Origin: Desulfobulbaceae bacterium
GTDB taxonomy: Bacteria; Desulfobacterota; Desulfobulbia; Desulfobulbales; Desulfobulbaceae
Assembly (NCBI GenBank): GCA_026986885.1
Contig: JALSNT010000565.1
Location: 1-7,794 of the forward strand
DNA length: 7,794 nucleotides
Reading direction: 5' to 3'
Of the stretch, positions 1 through 4,243 are shown one piece after another. The position numbers and the translations under genes are program-made. Numbering within the stretch: position 1 is the first letter of the stretch; the number at the start of each line of letters is the position of its first letter. Below the pieces are notes generated by a model that saw only the letters and a program-made list of their open reading frames with translations, searched no databases and was not told the DNA's origin.

Positions 1-273
1 CGGCTTGAGGTCCTGGCCCGAAGTCAGGAGGCGTTTAAGGATGCGGCCCGCAACTGGCCGGGAGACAAAATCTTAGTGATCAGTCATGAAGGCGTCCTTA
101 AATGTCTGGTTTACAATATCTGCGGCCGAAAATTTCTGCCCTCGGAACAGCCGATCATTGAAGGGTATGCATTGCATCTCCTGCAGATCTGTAAAAAAAG
201 CCTGCTCCTTGAAAAGGTGGGGATTGTGGAACTTGCTACCAGTAAAGAAGCAGAGACAAAGGCCCTTTTTTAA
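1..273 (+). CDS. Histidine phosphatase family protein, C-terminal fragment
   Basis: Frame 1 is open from the left edge to a TAA at 271-273, giving 90 residues of a protein whose N-terminus lies outside the window. Residues 24-34 read ILVISHEGVLK with His29. This matches the second catalytic-His block of the histidine phosphatase (phosphoglycerate-mutase-like) superfamily, in which a hydrophobic strand leads into SHxG. The first RHG motif, which would carry the phosphorylated His, must lie upstream and is not visible. Members include alpha-ribazole phosphatase (CobC), GpmB-like and sugar-phosphate phosphatases, and the fragment does not distinguish them. A cobalamin role would suit the nearby cobA domain, but that is only a guess because the gene is convergent with that operon. 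Its stop is 29 bp from the stop of the CULT gene, and I see no clear terminator between them. Confidence 0.8.
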   Translation, partial: RLEVLARSQEAFKDAARNWPGDKILVISHEGVLKCLVYNICGRKFLPSEQPIIEGYALHLLQICKKSLLLEKVGIVELATSKEAETKALF

Positions 274-302
274 GCGGGATTGAAGCGGTCGTCCCCGGCT
301 GG

Positions 303-737
303 TCACTCAAGCAGTCTGTCTGCGATCAGGCCGAAAAATGAATCGGTCTGTGAGGAAAACCGCCAGCCCAAATGGGTCAGGCAGGTGGCGCACAGGGCAT
401 ACTGCCAGTTGTAACCGTTAAACCAGGAGAATACATCCGTCGGTTCTCCCCGGATGAGGCAGCCCGGTGCCCGCTTGTAGCAGCAAATTTCAAAGGCTAT
501 GCCCGCCGGGTTGAAAAATACATGTTCATGGCGACCGTTTTTGCTGCAACCATCTCCCGGGCTGGTTATGGCTGCCGTGCAGGTACTGCAGAGGATGGCT
601 TTTTTGGGGGAGATTTTTTTCCGATCCCCGGATTCGTTTTCCGTTTCCCCTGTTTTCCCCTGCTGGAGCTCAAGGCGATAGCAGGAAAGCGGCAGCGGGC
701 CGGGGTCAGTCGATACTGTAATTGGTGACGATTGCAT
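303..737 (-). CDS. CULT-domain (cereblon-like) small protein
   Basis: This is a 144-residue soluble protein read from ATG at 737. It shows the full signature of the CULT domain, the beta-tent fold that binds thalidomide in human cereblon. C50xxC53 and C116xxC119 form the zinc site. N76-P77-x-G79 matches the human NPxG loop. S104-W105, W111 and W125 form the tri-Trp cage, with F127 behind it. The Trp spacings (+6, +14) and the Trp-to-Cys spacings (+5, +8) equal those of human W380, W386, W400, C391 and C394, and F127 corresponds to F402. Human H378 is replaced by F103, as I recall for the Magnetospirillum protein MsCI4. There is no Lon-like or DDB1-binding region, signal peptide or membrane segment. 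Residues 1-45 are a polar extension of unknown role. The start overlaps cobA-hemD by 32 nt and no Shine-Dalgarno is visible. A TTG at 752 is an alternative start. Family assignment is firm; the physiological ligand and function are unknown. Confidence 0.92.
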   Translation of the reverse strand: MQSSPITVSTDPGPLPLSCYRLELQQGKTGETENESGDRKKISPKKAILCSTCTAAITSPGDGCSKNGRHEHVFFNPAGIAFEICCYKRAPGCLIRGEPTDVFSWFNGYNWQYALCATCLTHLGWRFSSQTDSFFGLIADRLLE

Positions 738-2259
738 TGACCATGTCGGCAATGGTATATTCCGACGGCTGGATATCGACCTTGAGGCCGTGTTTTTTGA
801 CGGTGTCGGCGGTAATCGGCCCGATGACTGCGATTTGTACCGGGTCCATCAGCCGGTGCAGTTCTTGGTCGGATTCGGCGTCAACCATGGTGAGGAAGTT
901 GTCCACCGTCGACGAGCTGGTAAAAGTGATCAGGTCAATGGTCCGATCTTCCAGCCTTTCCCTGAGTTCATCTTTCCTCCCTTGTGGCGGAACATTGCGA
1001 TAGACAGGGGCAACTGTCACCTCGGCCCCGGCAGCGTTGAGCATCTCCGGCAGGATCTCCCGCGCCTTTTCTGCCCGTGGCAGCAGAATTTTTGCCCCGT
1101 TAACCCCCGTATTGATGAGCGCTTCGGCCAGTCCCTCACCGGTGAATTTTATCGGCAGCAGGTCCGCCTTTAAGCCATAGTCACGCAACTTCCTCGCTGT
1201 GGCCCTGCCGACTACCCCGATTTTCGGACCGCCAAGTCTTCTGACATCCATGTCGCTTTCCCAGAGATGGCGAAAAAACCAGGTAACGGCATTGATACTG
1301 GTAAACAGCAGCCATTGATAGTCACCGATTCGGGCAAGGCTGCTGTCAAGAATGGAGTAATCAACAGCCGGTTCCATGTGCAGGGTCGGATATTCCAGGC
1401 AGTCGGCGCCGTTTTCCTCCAGCAGGGCAACCAGTTCACTGGCCTGTTCCCTGGTACGGGTAACCACGATCTTTTTACCAAACAACGGTCGTTTCTCAAA
1501 CCAGTCGATGGTTGCACGTAATTTGACGACATCACCGACAATGATCAGGGCCGGAGGCGTGATGCCTGCCTCGGCGACGATATCGGTGATGGTTTCCAGA
1601 GTGCCTGCAACCGAGTATTGCTCCGGAGTTGAGGCCCAGCGGACAACGGCCACCGGTGTTTCCGGTGCCCGGCCGTTGTCGATCAGTTTTTTAGTGATGA
1701 CGGGCAGGTTCTTGATGCCCATGTAGATGACAATTGTGCCGGCGCCGGTGGCCAGTTTGTCCCAGGCAATGTTTGATTCTTTTTTGCCGGGTGCCTCATG
1801 GCCGGTAATAAAGGCGACCGAAGCCGTATATTCACGATGGGTTATCGGAATGCCTGCATAGGTGGCGGCGGCGGTGGCCGAAGTCACGCCGGGCACAACT
1901 TCAAAGTCTATACCGGCGGCGACCAGTTCTTCAATCTCTTCCGCGCCCCGGCCGAAGATGAAGGGATCTCCCCCTTTAAGTCGTACCACCCGTTTGCCCT
2001 TGCCGGCAAAGTCGATTAACAGGTTGTTGATTTCCGCCTGGGTAAAGGCATGCAGGCCGCCGCCTTTTTTACCGGCATAAACAAGTTTCGCTGTTTCCGG
2101 AGCATGGCGCAGCAGCTTGGGATTGGCCAGGTAATCGTAGACCACCACTTCAGCTCGTTCCAGCAGATGTTTGCCCCGCAGGGTAATCAATCCCGGCGCA
2201 CCGGGACCGGCGCCGACAAGATAGACCTTGCCGGGTAGTTTTGTTGGCTGTTTCTTCAT
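706..2259 (-). CDS. cobA-hemD: Fused uroporphyrinogen-III C-methyltransferase / uroporphyrinogen-III synthase
   Basis: This 517-residue protein has two enzymes in one chain. Residues about 10-248 are the SAM-dependent methyltransferase (SUMT/CobA). It has the N-terminal VYLVGAGPGAPGLITL loop, RLKGGDPFIFGRG at 93-105, VVPGVTSATAAATYAGIPITHR at about 121-142 and YMGIKN at 179-184. Residues about 258-517 are uroporphyrinogen-III synthase (HemD), starting with KKIVVTRTREQASEL, with LLFTSINAV near 317 and TFTSSSTVDNF near 446. HemD cyclises hydroxymethylbilane with D-ring inversion. CobA then adds two methyl groups to give precorrin-2, the branch point to siroheme, cobalamin and siroheme-derived heme. 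No Met8/CysG-type dehydrogenase-chelatase domain is present. The ATG overlaps the hemC stop as ATGA, and an AGGA at 2272-2269 is spaced 9 nt from it, both supporting this start. The 3' end overlaps the CULT gene. Confidence 0.96.
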   Translation of the reverse strand: MKKQPTKLPGKVYLVGAGPGAPGLITLRGKHLLERAEVVVYDYLANPKLLRHAPETAKLVYAGKKGGGLHAFTQAEINNLLIDFAGKGKRVVRLKGGDPFIFGRGAEEIEELVAAGIDFEVVPGVTSATAAATYAGIPITHREYTASVAFITGHEAPGKKESNIAWDKLATGAGTIVIYMGIKNLPVITKKLIDNGRAPETPVAVVRWASTPEQYSVAGTLETITDIVAEAGITPPALIIVGDVVKLRATIDWFEKRPLFGKKIVVTRTREQASELVALLEENGADCLEYPTLHMEPAVDYSILDSSLARIGDYQWLLFTSINAVTWFFRHLWESDMDVRRLGGPKIGVVGRATARKLRDYGLKADLLPIKFTGEGLAEALINTGVNGAKILLPRAEKAREILPEMLNAAGAEVTVAPVYRNVPPQGRKDELRERLEDRTIDLITFTSSSTVDNFLTMVDAESDQELHRLMDPVQIAVIGPITADTVKKHGLKVDIQPSEYTIADMVNAIVTNYSID

Positions 2260-3191
2260 GGCCGTGTTTCCTGATATACCTGGTCAAGTATGGCCCGGCC
2301 GCCCCGGTCAAGCAGGGTCTCGGCAAGGGATCTGCCGAGTTTTACCGCTTGCTTCATGGGTGCGCTTTGCTGTTCTCGCAGTATTCGGGTACCGTCGACG
2401 GCGGCAATGAGACCGGTCAAGGTAACGGTGTCGTCGTTCAGCACCGCATGGGCGCCGATAGGGACCTGGCAGCCGCCTTCAAGTCGGAGAAGAAAGGCGC
2501 GTTCCGCTGCAACGGTAATTGCCGTTTTCGGGTCATGCAGAAACTGCATACCGGCAAGAAGCTCGTCATCGGCAATGCGGAGTTCTATACCCAATGAGCC
2601 CTGGCCGATGGCCGGCAGCATCTGTTCCGGCGTGAACAGGGAGGCAATCCGCTGCTGTAAACCCAAGCGGTTGAGACCGGCTCCGGCAAGGATGATGGCA
2701 TCATACTGTCCTTCATCAAGCTTGCGTAATCTGGTGTCAAGATTACCGCGCAGGTCCTCAATGACAAGATCCGGGCGCAGGGCGGCAAGCTGGGCCTTGC
2801 GCCTGAGGCTCGAGGTGCCGATGCGGGCACCTGCCGGTAGCTCGTCAAGTGTTGTTTCGCCATTGCAGATAAAGGCATCAAATGGTGTTTCCCGGGGAGG
2901 AATGACGGCCACCTGCAGCCCCTCGGGCAGGTCGGAAGGAACGTCTTTCATGGAGTGAACGGCAAGATCGACCCGGCCGGCTGCCAGGGCATCTTCAATC
3001 TCTTTGACAAAGAGTCCTTTGCCGCCTACCTTGGCCAGCGGTACGTCCAGGATTTTATCGCCTCTGGTGGTTATTTTCACCAGCTCCACGGTTGTATCCG
3101 GGTACTGGCTTTCAATTTGATTTTTTACCCAGGTAGACTGGGTAACGGCCAGCAGACTGGCCCTGGTGCCGATTTTTACGGTTTTCTTCAT
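2256..3191 (-). CDS. hemC: Hydroxymethylbilane synthase (porphobilinogen deaminase)
   Basis: HemC polymerises four porphobilinogen molecules into linear hydroxymethylbilane, the substrate of the HemD domain encoded just downstream. From ATG 3191 the protein is 311 residues, close to the 313 of E. coli. Visible hallmarks are KIGTRASLLAVTQ at 6-18, KGLFVKEIEDAL at 58-69, VHSMKDVP at 78-85 with catalytic Asp83, GTSSLRRKAQL at 125-135, EDLRGNLDTRLRKL at 145-158, and LEGGCQVPIGAHA at 237-249. In the last motif Cys241 would anchor the dipyrromethane cofactor. An in-frame ATG at 3236 would add 15 residues that do not resemble the family. Neither start has a clear Shine-Dalgarno, so 3191 is chosen by family length. 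The TGA forms a 4-bp ATGA overlap with cobA-hemD, suggesting translational coupling. Confidence 0.97.
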   Translation of the reverse strand: MKKTVKIGTRASLLAVTQSTWVKNQIESQYPDTTVELVKITTRGDKILDVPLAKVGGKGLFVKEIEDALAAGRVDLAVHSMKDVPSDLPEGLQVAVIPPRETPFDAFICNGETTLDELPAGARIGTSSLRRKAQLAALRPDLVIEDLRGNLDTRLRKLDEGQYDAIILAGAGLNRLGLQQRIASLFTPEQMLPAIGQGSLGIELRIADDELLAGMQFLHDPKTAITVAAERAFLLRLEGGCQVPIGAHAVLNDDTVTLTGLIAAVDGTRILREQQSAPMKQAVKLGRSLAETLLDRGGRAILDQVYQETRP

Positions 3192-3242
3192 GGGTATGGA
3201 TTGTAAGCAGGAGGAGCATAACCTAAATTCAGGCATAAAAAG

Positions 3243-3263
3243 TATTGATTCGGAGAATCAATA
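3243..3263 (-). terminator. Perfect 9-bp dyad between the DHS-like gene and hemC
   Basis: TATTGATTC (3243-3251) and GAATCAATA (3255-3263) are perfect inverted repeats separated by GGA. Read on the minus strand, the hairpin follows the stop of the DHS-like gene by about 23 nt and is followed by CTTTTTATG, a run of five T. It could be a weak rho-independent terminator for the upstream gene. The stem is AT-rich, so an operator for hemC, which starts 52 nt downstream, is just as possible. The symmetry is seen directly; the role is inferred. Confidence 0.4.
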
Positions 3264-3286
3264 TAAATTGACCAGGCACCCTTGTA

Positions 3287-4243
3287 TCATGTTTTTGCAA
3301 GCTCGTCCAGTAATGCGGCGGCAAAAAGAGGAATCATCAGCTCATGGTGGCCGGTGAAGTTAAAACCGCGTCCGCCCTCAAGAGTGGGGCGGTGGACAAC
3401 ATTGGTGGCAGGGCGGTAGTGGCGGATAAAATCAAAGTTGGCCGTGGTAATCTCTTTGACGGTAAAACCAAGGTTTCTAACTACGGTCAGGGCCTTGAGA
3501 AAGACCTCGGGCAGCAGCACCGCCGAACCGACGTTAAGGTAGGCACCACCGTCAAGATCGCTGACCAGACGACAGAACAGGCGGAAATCGTGATAGCTGG
3601 TTTTGCCGATGGCAGCGCCGTCGGCATCCGGATGGATATGGATGATATCTGTGCCGATGGCGACATGCACGGTAACCGGCACACCTAATCTGCAGGCCTG
3701 GGCCAGCAGGCTGTGTTCGTTGTGGGGAAAATCATGGGCCAGCAGGGTCCGGCCCACGGCTTCGCCCATGCCCATGTCCTGGGTCGCGCCTTCATTGATT
3801 GCCCGGTTGAGAATTTCTCCGGTCTCTCCGGCTGCTCCGAAAGCGCCCCGGCCAAGGACATCGGCAACTTCCTCCGAGGTGCGGCCGACCATGGCTATTT
3901 CCGCATCGTGAATAATACCGGCGCCGTTTAAGGCAATGGAGGTAATGATTCCCCGTTTCATCAGTTCAATGAGGATGGGGTTTAAGCCGACCTTGATGAC
4001 GTGGGCACCCATGCCCAACATTACCGGCCGTTTGTTTCGTCGTGCCGATGCCACCCGCTTGATCAACTCGGGAAATTCGCCACCGGCCAACTGGGTCGGC
4101 AGGGCTGCCAGTAAATCTTTGACCCGCATGTCGGGTTTGAGAATACCGGCAAAATCTTTGACGCTGACCTTGGAATGCCGGTCGTAGACAGAGTAGGTGT
4201 TCAGTCCTGAGAAATCAAGTGGCTGCAGAGAGAGGGCGGACAT
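3287..4243 (-). CDS. Conserved protein of uncertain function, deoxyhypusine-synthase-like features
   Basis: This 318-residue soluble protein is read from ATG 4243, which is 22 nt after the gmhA stop. I do not recognise it with certainty. Residues 73-98 (PVMLGMGAHVIKVGLNPIL and onward) followed by SIALNGAGIIHDAEIA at 102-117 resemble the Rossmann-like nucleotide-binding core of deoxyhypusine synthase (a GxxSxLVSSG helix, then TTAGGxEED). NVGSAVLLPEVFLKAL at 237-252 resembles its later GGGVVKH region. The active-site lysine motif (WGKI) of true DHS is not seen, and bacteria lack eIF5A, so classical DHS activity is unlikely. A histidine-rich stretch, VHVAIGTDIIHIHPDADGA at 192-210, and FDFIRHYRPATNVVHRP at 270-286 look conserved and could bind metal or substrate. 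A longer in-frame ORF reaches back to 4429, but it overlaps gmhA and its added sequence looks like frame shadow. The gene probably shares a transcript with gmhA. Confidence 0.6.
   Translation of the reverse strand: MSALSLQPLDFSGLNTYSVYDRHSKVSVKDFAGILKPDMRVKDLLAALPTQLAGGEFPELIKRVASARRNKRPVMLGMGAHVIKVGLNPILIELMKRGIITSIALNGAGIIHDAEIAMVGRTSEEVADVLGRGAFGAAGETGEILNRAINEGATQDMGMGEAVGRTLLAHDFPHNEHSLLAQACRLGVPVTVHVAIGTDIIHIHPDADGAAIGKTSYHDFRLFCRLVSDLDGGAYLNVGSAVLLPEVFLKALTVVRNLGFTVKEITTANFDFIRHYRPATNVVHRPTLEGGRGFNFTGHHELMIPLFAAALLDELAKT

Follow-up and report, generated by a model that had tools for sequence, protein, structure and literature searches.

Targeted protein degradation works mainly through the pocket of cereblon, whose role in bacteria is unsettled. 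What such a pocket may serve is the question raised by a short gene in a 7,794-nucleotide stretch of DNA from a Desulfobulbaceae bacterium (the whole of which is called the window here). A first-pass annotation, made from the letters alone, had described its product as a stand-alone bacterial CULT-domain protein with an intact cereblon pocket.

Family membership and pocket of the window protein

The gene, its domain and the parts of the predicted pocket are located as follows.

303..737, minus strand: gene for the CULT-domain protein (144 amino acids plus stop; ATG at 737, stop ending at 303)
306..602, minus strand: CULT domain proper, residues 46-144 (from pLDDT, aligned range and pN/pS)
579..590, minus strand: first predicted zinc-site CxxC, C50 and C53 (from sequence and conservation)
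381..392, minus strand: second predicted zinc-site CxxC, C116 and C119 (from sequence and conservation)
357..425, minus strand: aromatic cage, W105, W111 and W125 plus F127 (spaced as in MsCI4)
501..512, minus strand: NPAG loop, N76-G79 (from conservation)

The open reading frame and the residues all lie where the first-pass annotation had put them; a TTG at 752 is the sole other in-frame start ahead of the tail motif described below. In phmmer comparisons, the window protein matched the homologous MsCI4 (MGR_0879), the bacterial CULT protein of Magnetospirillum gryphiswaldense, with an E value of 6.4e-26, and human cereblon with one of about 1e-10. A first protein search returned 37 homologues and the alignment search 961, of which 120 were listed. 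Taken together with the low pN/pS of the domain (see below), the match to MsCI4 and these numbers argue against chance similarity. Among the matches listed, the CULT proteins P0063, P0073 and P0075 are labeled "filamentous hemagglutinin family protein," apparently a misannotation.

The AlphaFold2 (AF2) model of the window protein found its fold matches among PDB structures, aligned over residues 46-144, and has block-mean pLDDT values of 92-98 from residue 51 onward. An overlay on the CULT domains of MsCI4 and human cereblon had been set beforehand as a test. Neither of the outcomes named at first pass as refuting was observed: matches to solved CULT domains are strong, the model superposes on both proteins, and the beta-tent fold by which the CULT family is recognized is present in it. 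Judged from sequence, the protein is thus a member of the CULT family, correctly named at first pass and of a kind already known. General profile libraries were less telling: the nearest Pfam model, Yippee-Mis18 (PF03226), scored 19.2 bits, below its gathering cut-off of 26.6, and NCBIfam returned no match at E 0.01. No LON domain was matched by Pfam at E 0.1, and the LON-before-CULT arrangement of cereblon is not found in the 144 residues; nor did the Pfam scan find an enzyme or DNA-binding domain attached to the CULT domain. "Stand-alone" holds with respect to domains but leaves out two things: ahead of the domain lies a tail bearing a conserved short motif, and the gene overlaps cobA-hemD in its lineage.

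The pocket itself is strongly conserved. The tryptophans W79/W85/W99 of MsCI4 correspond to W380/W386/W400 of the human protein (PMC8900816), and their spacings of 6 and 14 are identical to those of W105-W111-W125; as claimed at first pass, F127, both CxxC pairs, Ser104 and the loop N76-P-A-G79 are in place as well. All three tryptophans are kept in 264/264 full-length relatives and both CxxC motifs in 263/264 (C50 in 264/265 relatives, C53, C116 and C119 each in 266/266), and the loop is similarly constant (N76 in 267/267, P77 in 266/266, G79 in 266/267). Pooled over six relatives of the window protein, pN/pS of the domain was 0.23, a value which, like all such ratios given here, is only comparative because synonymous differences are near saturation (pS 0.55-0.62). 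Selection on the pocket, which had initially been deduced from the retained cage, is supported by this ratio and by the invariance of the cage tryptophans among relatives.

Around the cage, the protein departs from both solved relatives. The floor of the MsCI4 cage is Tyr101, whose hydroxyl is absent from the human protein (PMC8900816), and is replaced by Phe127 here. Two residues ahead of Ser104, Val102 stands for Glu76 of MsCI4, a position occupied by Glu or Asp in 227/267 relatives. Compared with human cereblon, Phe103 replaces His378 and Ala78 replaces His353 (mapping as given in PMC8900816), and both the LON domain and the DDB1/CUL4 ligase are lacking. Cys86 had been considered as a catalytic cysteine; it is invariant in closer relatives, yet Thr, Leu, Ser or Ile takes its place in 11/267, and the candidate was dropped. 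A divergent group of bacterial CULT proteins (loci L138-L142) has the hairpin NPAGVxC or similar, not NPAGIxF, and apparently has no Cys at position 86.

A conserved motif in the N-terminal tail

The segment ahead of the domain comprises two parts that the analysis could tell apart.

660..686, minus strand: tail motif, residues 18-26, SCYRLELQQ (from enrichment and pN/pS)
603..659, minus strand: charged linker, residues 27-45 (from low hydrophobicity in homologues, pN/pS and pLDDT)

When 119 tails were compared without gaps, counting back from the first zinc cysteine, hydrophobic residues peaked at positions -31/-30 and Arg/Lys at -29. Two hydrophobic residues followed by a basic one lie about 28-31 residues N-terminal to this cysteine in several phyla. 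For quantification, the pattern [FILMVWYC]2[RK] was counted at positions -38 to -24 before Cys50 and compared with 1000 shuffles of each tail. It was present in 72/113 proteins (shuffles: mean 14.8, maximum 31; the set results from excluding 13 of 126 proteins that were too short or lacked the Cys pattern) and in 24/32 proteins after thinning to 55% identity (mean 4.1, maximum 11). At the level of loci, it occurred in 41/52 of those of the hemD lineage (mean 5.7, maximum 15) and in 21/47 others (mean 5.7, maximum 13). The underlying locus set comprised 103 loci, with the duplicates L127 and L145 and the too-short L140 and L143 excluded; its hemD part includes L013 and L032, both truncated upstream, as well as L060, wrongly counted since its sequence breaks off within the domain. 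The joint frame of L008 (see below) did not enter the counts. A later set of 42 loci, mostly from Spirochaetota and Pseudomonadota genomes and three from Nitrospirota, yielded the motif in 18 of the 39 readable tails (mean 4.6, maximum 13). Thus, the count exceeded all 1000 shuffles in every set. As the tail was part of the profile with which the sequences were collected, the sets may be somewhat biased toward tails like that of the window protein. A control stretch at -24 to -8 contained the pattern less often than its shuffles (6/113, 3/32, 2/52 and 1/47, and 2/39 in the later set). Placement is narrow, the basic residue being found at -28 to -30 in 61/97 occurrences.

The strict pattern is absent from 26/47 loci outside the hemD lineage and from 21/39 of the later ones; in many such tails a looser form, judged by eye, occupies the same place (LLFFDP, AFKRLD, ALQRID). 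No such motif lies ahead of the domain in the crystallized chain of MsCI4 or in L143 and L144, two loci from Alphaproteobacteria; hence some CULT proteins do without it. Residue 42 of the window protein aligns with residue 16 of the MsCI4 chain, which is hence too short to contain a motif at that distance; the longer tail with its conserved motif is one of the differences between the two proteins.

Within the tail, pN/pS against the six relatives was 0.37 for residues 18-26, compared with 0.77 for the linker and 0.95 for residues 10-17. As far as these substitution ratios indicate, the tail motif is under purifying selection, weaker than that on the domain and stronger than that on the linker; the overall pattern argues that both pocket and motif are kept by selection. 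The notion that the tail is part of the fold was rejected on the basis of two AF2 models, in both of which it has no secondary structure (block-mean pLDDT 60-69 and 53-65); an alignment chosen for the motif even lowered tail pLDDT, and residues 21-40 in the linker region reached about 53-63. Since the tail is modeled as disordered, a docking site for another molecule appears likelier than an element of the fold.

Lupas et al. (2015) described the bacterial CULT group as made up of nothing but the CULT domain. Compared with that description, the tail motif, the overlap with hemD and the broader counts for Spirochaetota, Nitrospirota and Acidobacteriota are additions. Mention of a tail motif was not found in the portions of the CULT literature covered (parts of PMC4287342 and PMC4449219), which is no proof of its absence there. 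The conserved motif is the addition of interest beyond the known CULT kind.

Genomic context, distribution and co-occurrence

Upstream of the CULT gene lie two genes of tetrapyrrole synthesis.

706..2259, minus strand: cobA-hemD fusion (Pfam TP_methylase and HEM4)
2256..3236, minus strand: hemC, porphobilinogen deaminase (Pfam); its stop overlaps the hemD start

The gene order is hemC, cobA-hemD, CULT, all on the minus strand and with CULT at the end, and by coordinates hemD shares its final 32 bases with the CULT gene. Further upstream, between a gmhA-like gene and hemC, positions 3290-4237 of the minus strand encode a deoxyhypusine-synthase-like protein of the GSU2086 family (NF052581, E 4.5e-132). 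For promoters and terminators, a scan of positions 1-3400 of the window did not clearly exceed shuffles.

The term hemD lineage is used for loci in which hemD lies next to CULT; these loci belong mostly to Desulfobulbaceae, Desulfobulbus, Desulfofustis, Desulforhopalus and similar taxa, with a few labeled only Deltaproteobacteria, Desulfobacteraceae/Desulfobacterales or uncultured bacterium. In 47/64 loci from named genomes, hemD ends upstream of CULT, and four more (L013, L032, L060 and L064) are cut off there. Every in-frame CULT start before the motif falls inside hemD in 33 of these 47; in six, starts lie on both sides of the hemD end, in another six CULT starts 9-311 bases past it, and L021 has no start ahead of the motif position. 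The 13/64 loci without hemD stem from Rhodospirillaceae, Nitrospirota/Nitrospirae, Spirochaetes, Acidobacteria or Deltaproteobacteria. We take the linkage to be a feature of the lineage, not of CULT function. In L008 (positions 6592-8544), cobA-hemD and CULT share one open frame of 651 codons from which the usual HemD C-terminus is missing; this is probably an assembly frameshift and possibly a real fusion.

Outside the lineage, the gene appears solitary. In 49 loci, hemD was not within two genes of CULT (L064 and L121, cut off just upstream, are among them). No Pfam family occurred more than three times in their 146 neighbor proteins, frames having been called by a simple script and proteins shorter than 100 or longer than 700 amino acids left out. 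Neither an ATP-dependent protease family nor a pyrimidine family was among the 25 neighbor families listed. With group names taken from locus titles, CULT was counted in 39/395 genomes from the phylum to which the Desulfobulbus elongatus locus belongs, in 3/289 from the class and 21/349 from the phylum of a Rhodospirillaceae locus, and, for the phyla of the Spirochaetes locus, a Nitrospirota locus and the Acidobacteria locus, in 32/247 (one being a weak match with two stops), 4/148 and 4/149, respectively. It is retained in 27/27 rows of one spirochaete clade, which, together with the lack of a recurring neighbor outside the hemD lineage, suits a general role. The window protein had no tblastn match at E 1e-5 in 50,697 phage and 72,556 plasmid records. 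A search for CULT fusions of ~358-1139 amino acids gave 16 candidates, none at E ≤1e-5, the search being so insensitive that cereblon itself was not returned.

According to a review, C-terminal cyclic imides can be products of the human protein-isoaspartate methyltransferase (PIMT), PCMT1 (PMC13001092); for this reason, the co-occurrence of PIMT and CULT was examined. Among spirochaetes, PIMT was found in 31/32 genomes with CULT vs 15/48 without, and outside spirochaetes in 75/76 genomes with CULT; G872 and G381 carry CULT without a PIMT match. In genomes of at least 3 Mb the link persisted (28/29 vs 21/52, combined from different profiles and cut-offs). In the Desulfobacterota sample, PIMT was near universal either way (38/39 with CULT, 41/41 without). 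A divergent paralogue, PIMT3 (alignment A5), was assigned by score band to 29/32 CULT-carrying spirochaete genomes and found in 6/74 spirochaetes without CULT (E 2e-76 or better); it was missing from the 76 CULT-carrying genomes outside Spirochaetota, none of which had a match better than 3e-48. On an rpoB tree of 72 genomes (from 80, seven without a qualifying rpoB match and G704, which has neither CULT nor PIMT, being excluded), all 27 rows with PIMT3 form one CULT-carrying clade; the tree implies three changes for CULT and one for PIMT3, leaving only three independent pairs, too few for a test. As the genomes with both genes form a single clade, the link amounts to one event and was rejected as evidence of function.

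In one spirochaete genome, a PIMT-like methyltransferase gene (L191:733-1404; G859:C23) overlaps the CULT start on the same strand, the only case in 149 loci searched, both matches being loci of this one genome. The spirochaete paralogue clade L191-L194 and L196-L209 has GQ(T/K)SDDP or similar for the canonical GQTISQP, and the four members scanned score under the NCBIfam PIMT cut-offs.

A proposed reader of cyclic imides and its alternatives

The explanation preferred here, tentatively and as the best among several, is that of a cyclic-imide reader whose tail tethers it to a partner, for which an ATP-dependent protease is the likeliest candidate. The gene product would be a small cytosolic protein that recognizes a cyclic imide with its CULT domain, and a disordered tail of roughly 45 residues would dock the partner through the short hydrophobic-basic motif ~30 residues before the zinc site. 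The substrate-receiving part of the protease, the N-domain of ClpX or that of Lon, would be the most likely docking partner, and the protein would work as a degradation adaptor without ubiquitin, translated, in its own lineage, where cobA-hemD ends.

In eukaryotic cereblon, CULT is preceded by a LON domain, which hints at a Lon-like partner. Small adaptors often have a disordered tail bearing a single conserved short motif, and both this and the mostly solitary, stably retained gene favor a protease adaptor. The likeness to SspB-type ClpX adaptors is one of mechanism only: these combine a tag-reading domain, a flexible tether and a short hydrophobic-basic peptide, and they have another fold and the motif at the opposite end. 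The resemblance in letters between the ClpX-binding tail of SspB and the window motif is weak and loose. The SspB peptide is described as functional wherever it is placed in the polypeptide (PMC12373786). That human cereblon reads C-terminal cyclic imides (PMC12117711) likewise favors the adaptor, while the narrow spacing of the motif speaks against docking through a free tether, for which it would be unusual. Also against the adaptor is the lack of an ATP-dependent protease family among the 25 neighbor families listed.

This spacing would suit an intramolecular latch: once ligand is bound, the tail would fold back along the ligand site and gate the cage, requiring no outside partner, much as an N-terminal extension of human cereblon lies folded along the site of thalidomide (PMC4449219). 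In both AF2 models the tail is unstructured (pLDDT 53-69), an objection that is weak in that they are ligand-free; overall we consider the latch rather improbable. A small-molecule sensor is somewhat unlikely. Here the cage would bind a metabolite, for instance a hydantoin, a dihydropyrimidine or uracil/uridine; the pocket would fold on binding, and this change would be the signal that the tail motif relays to a partner. Because MsCI4 also binds uracil and uridine (PMC4287342), the ligand may indeed be a small molecule; the MsCI4 pocket unfolds when the ligand departs (PMC4449219), and the cage, invariant in the bacterial set, is common to animal cereblon, which Lupas and colleagues took to favor a widespread ligand over a linear sequence motif (PMC4287342). 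However, the neighbor families listed include no pyrimidine family, and the protein has no attached enzyme or DNA-binding domain to transmit a signal.

The genomic findings bring up two further explanations. Translational coupling to cobA-hemD, with hemD upstream in 47/64 loci and starts before the motif only inside hemD in 33/47, might point to a sensor or regulator of the siroheme/heme pathway in the lineage, which could, for example, bind breakdown products of the maleimide type or steer the turnover of a pathway enzyme. But 13/64 loci have no hemD beside CULT and the 49 loci of the further set have none within two genes, loci without it keep the cage and often the motif, and the linkage is confined to one lineage, which makes this very unlikely. 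Even less credence is given to CULT as a repair partner of PIMT, capturing aspartimides from the methyltransferase for repair or removal. The co-occurrence in spirochaetes and elsewhere, the one overlapping gene pair and the ability ascribed to PCMT1 point that way, whereas the single clade with its three independent pairs, the near universality of PIMT in Desulfobacterota and the two genomes with CULT but no PIMT match stand against it.

The cyclic-imide reader with a docking tail may be extended to the family. Bacterial CULT proteins would then be ubiquitin-independent degradation adaptors, a cyclic-imide degron reader being joined by its N-terminal motif to ClpXP or Lon, a generalization that we regard as doubtful. 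MsCI4 is the common laboratory model of bacterial CULT, and work on it would miss partner docking at the motif, as its crystallized chain is too short to contain it. The tail motif makes the function of bacterial CULT directly testable, with the peptide as bait and with point mutants that part the role of the tail from ligand binding. If the generalization were true, quality control through C-terminal cyclic imides would predate the ubiquitin ligase by which animals exploit it, and imide-based degraders in bacteria would have a natural anchor in bacterial CULT.
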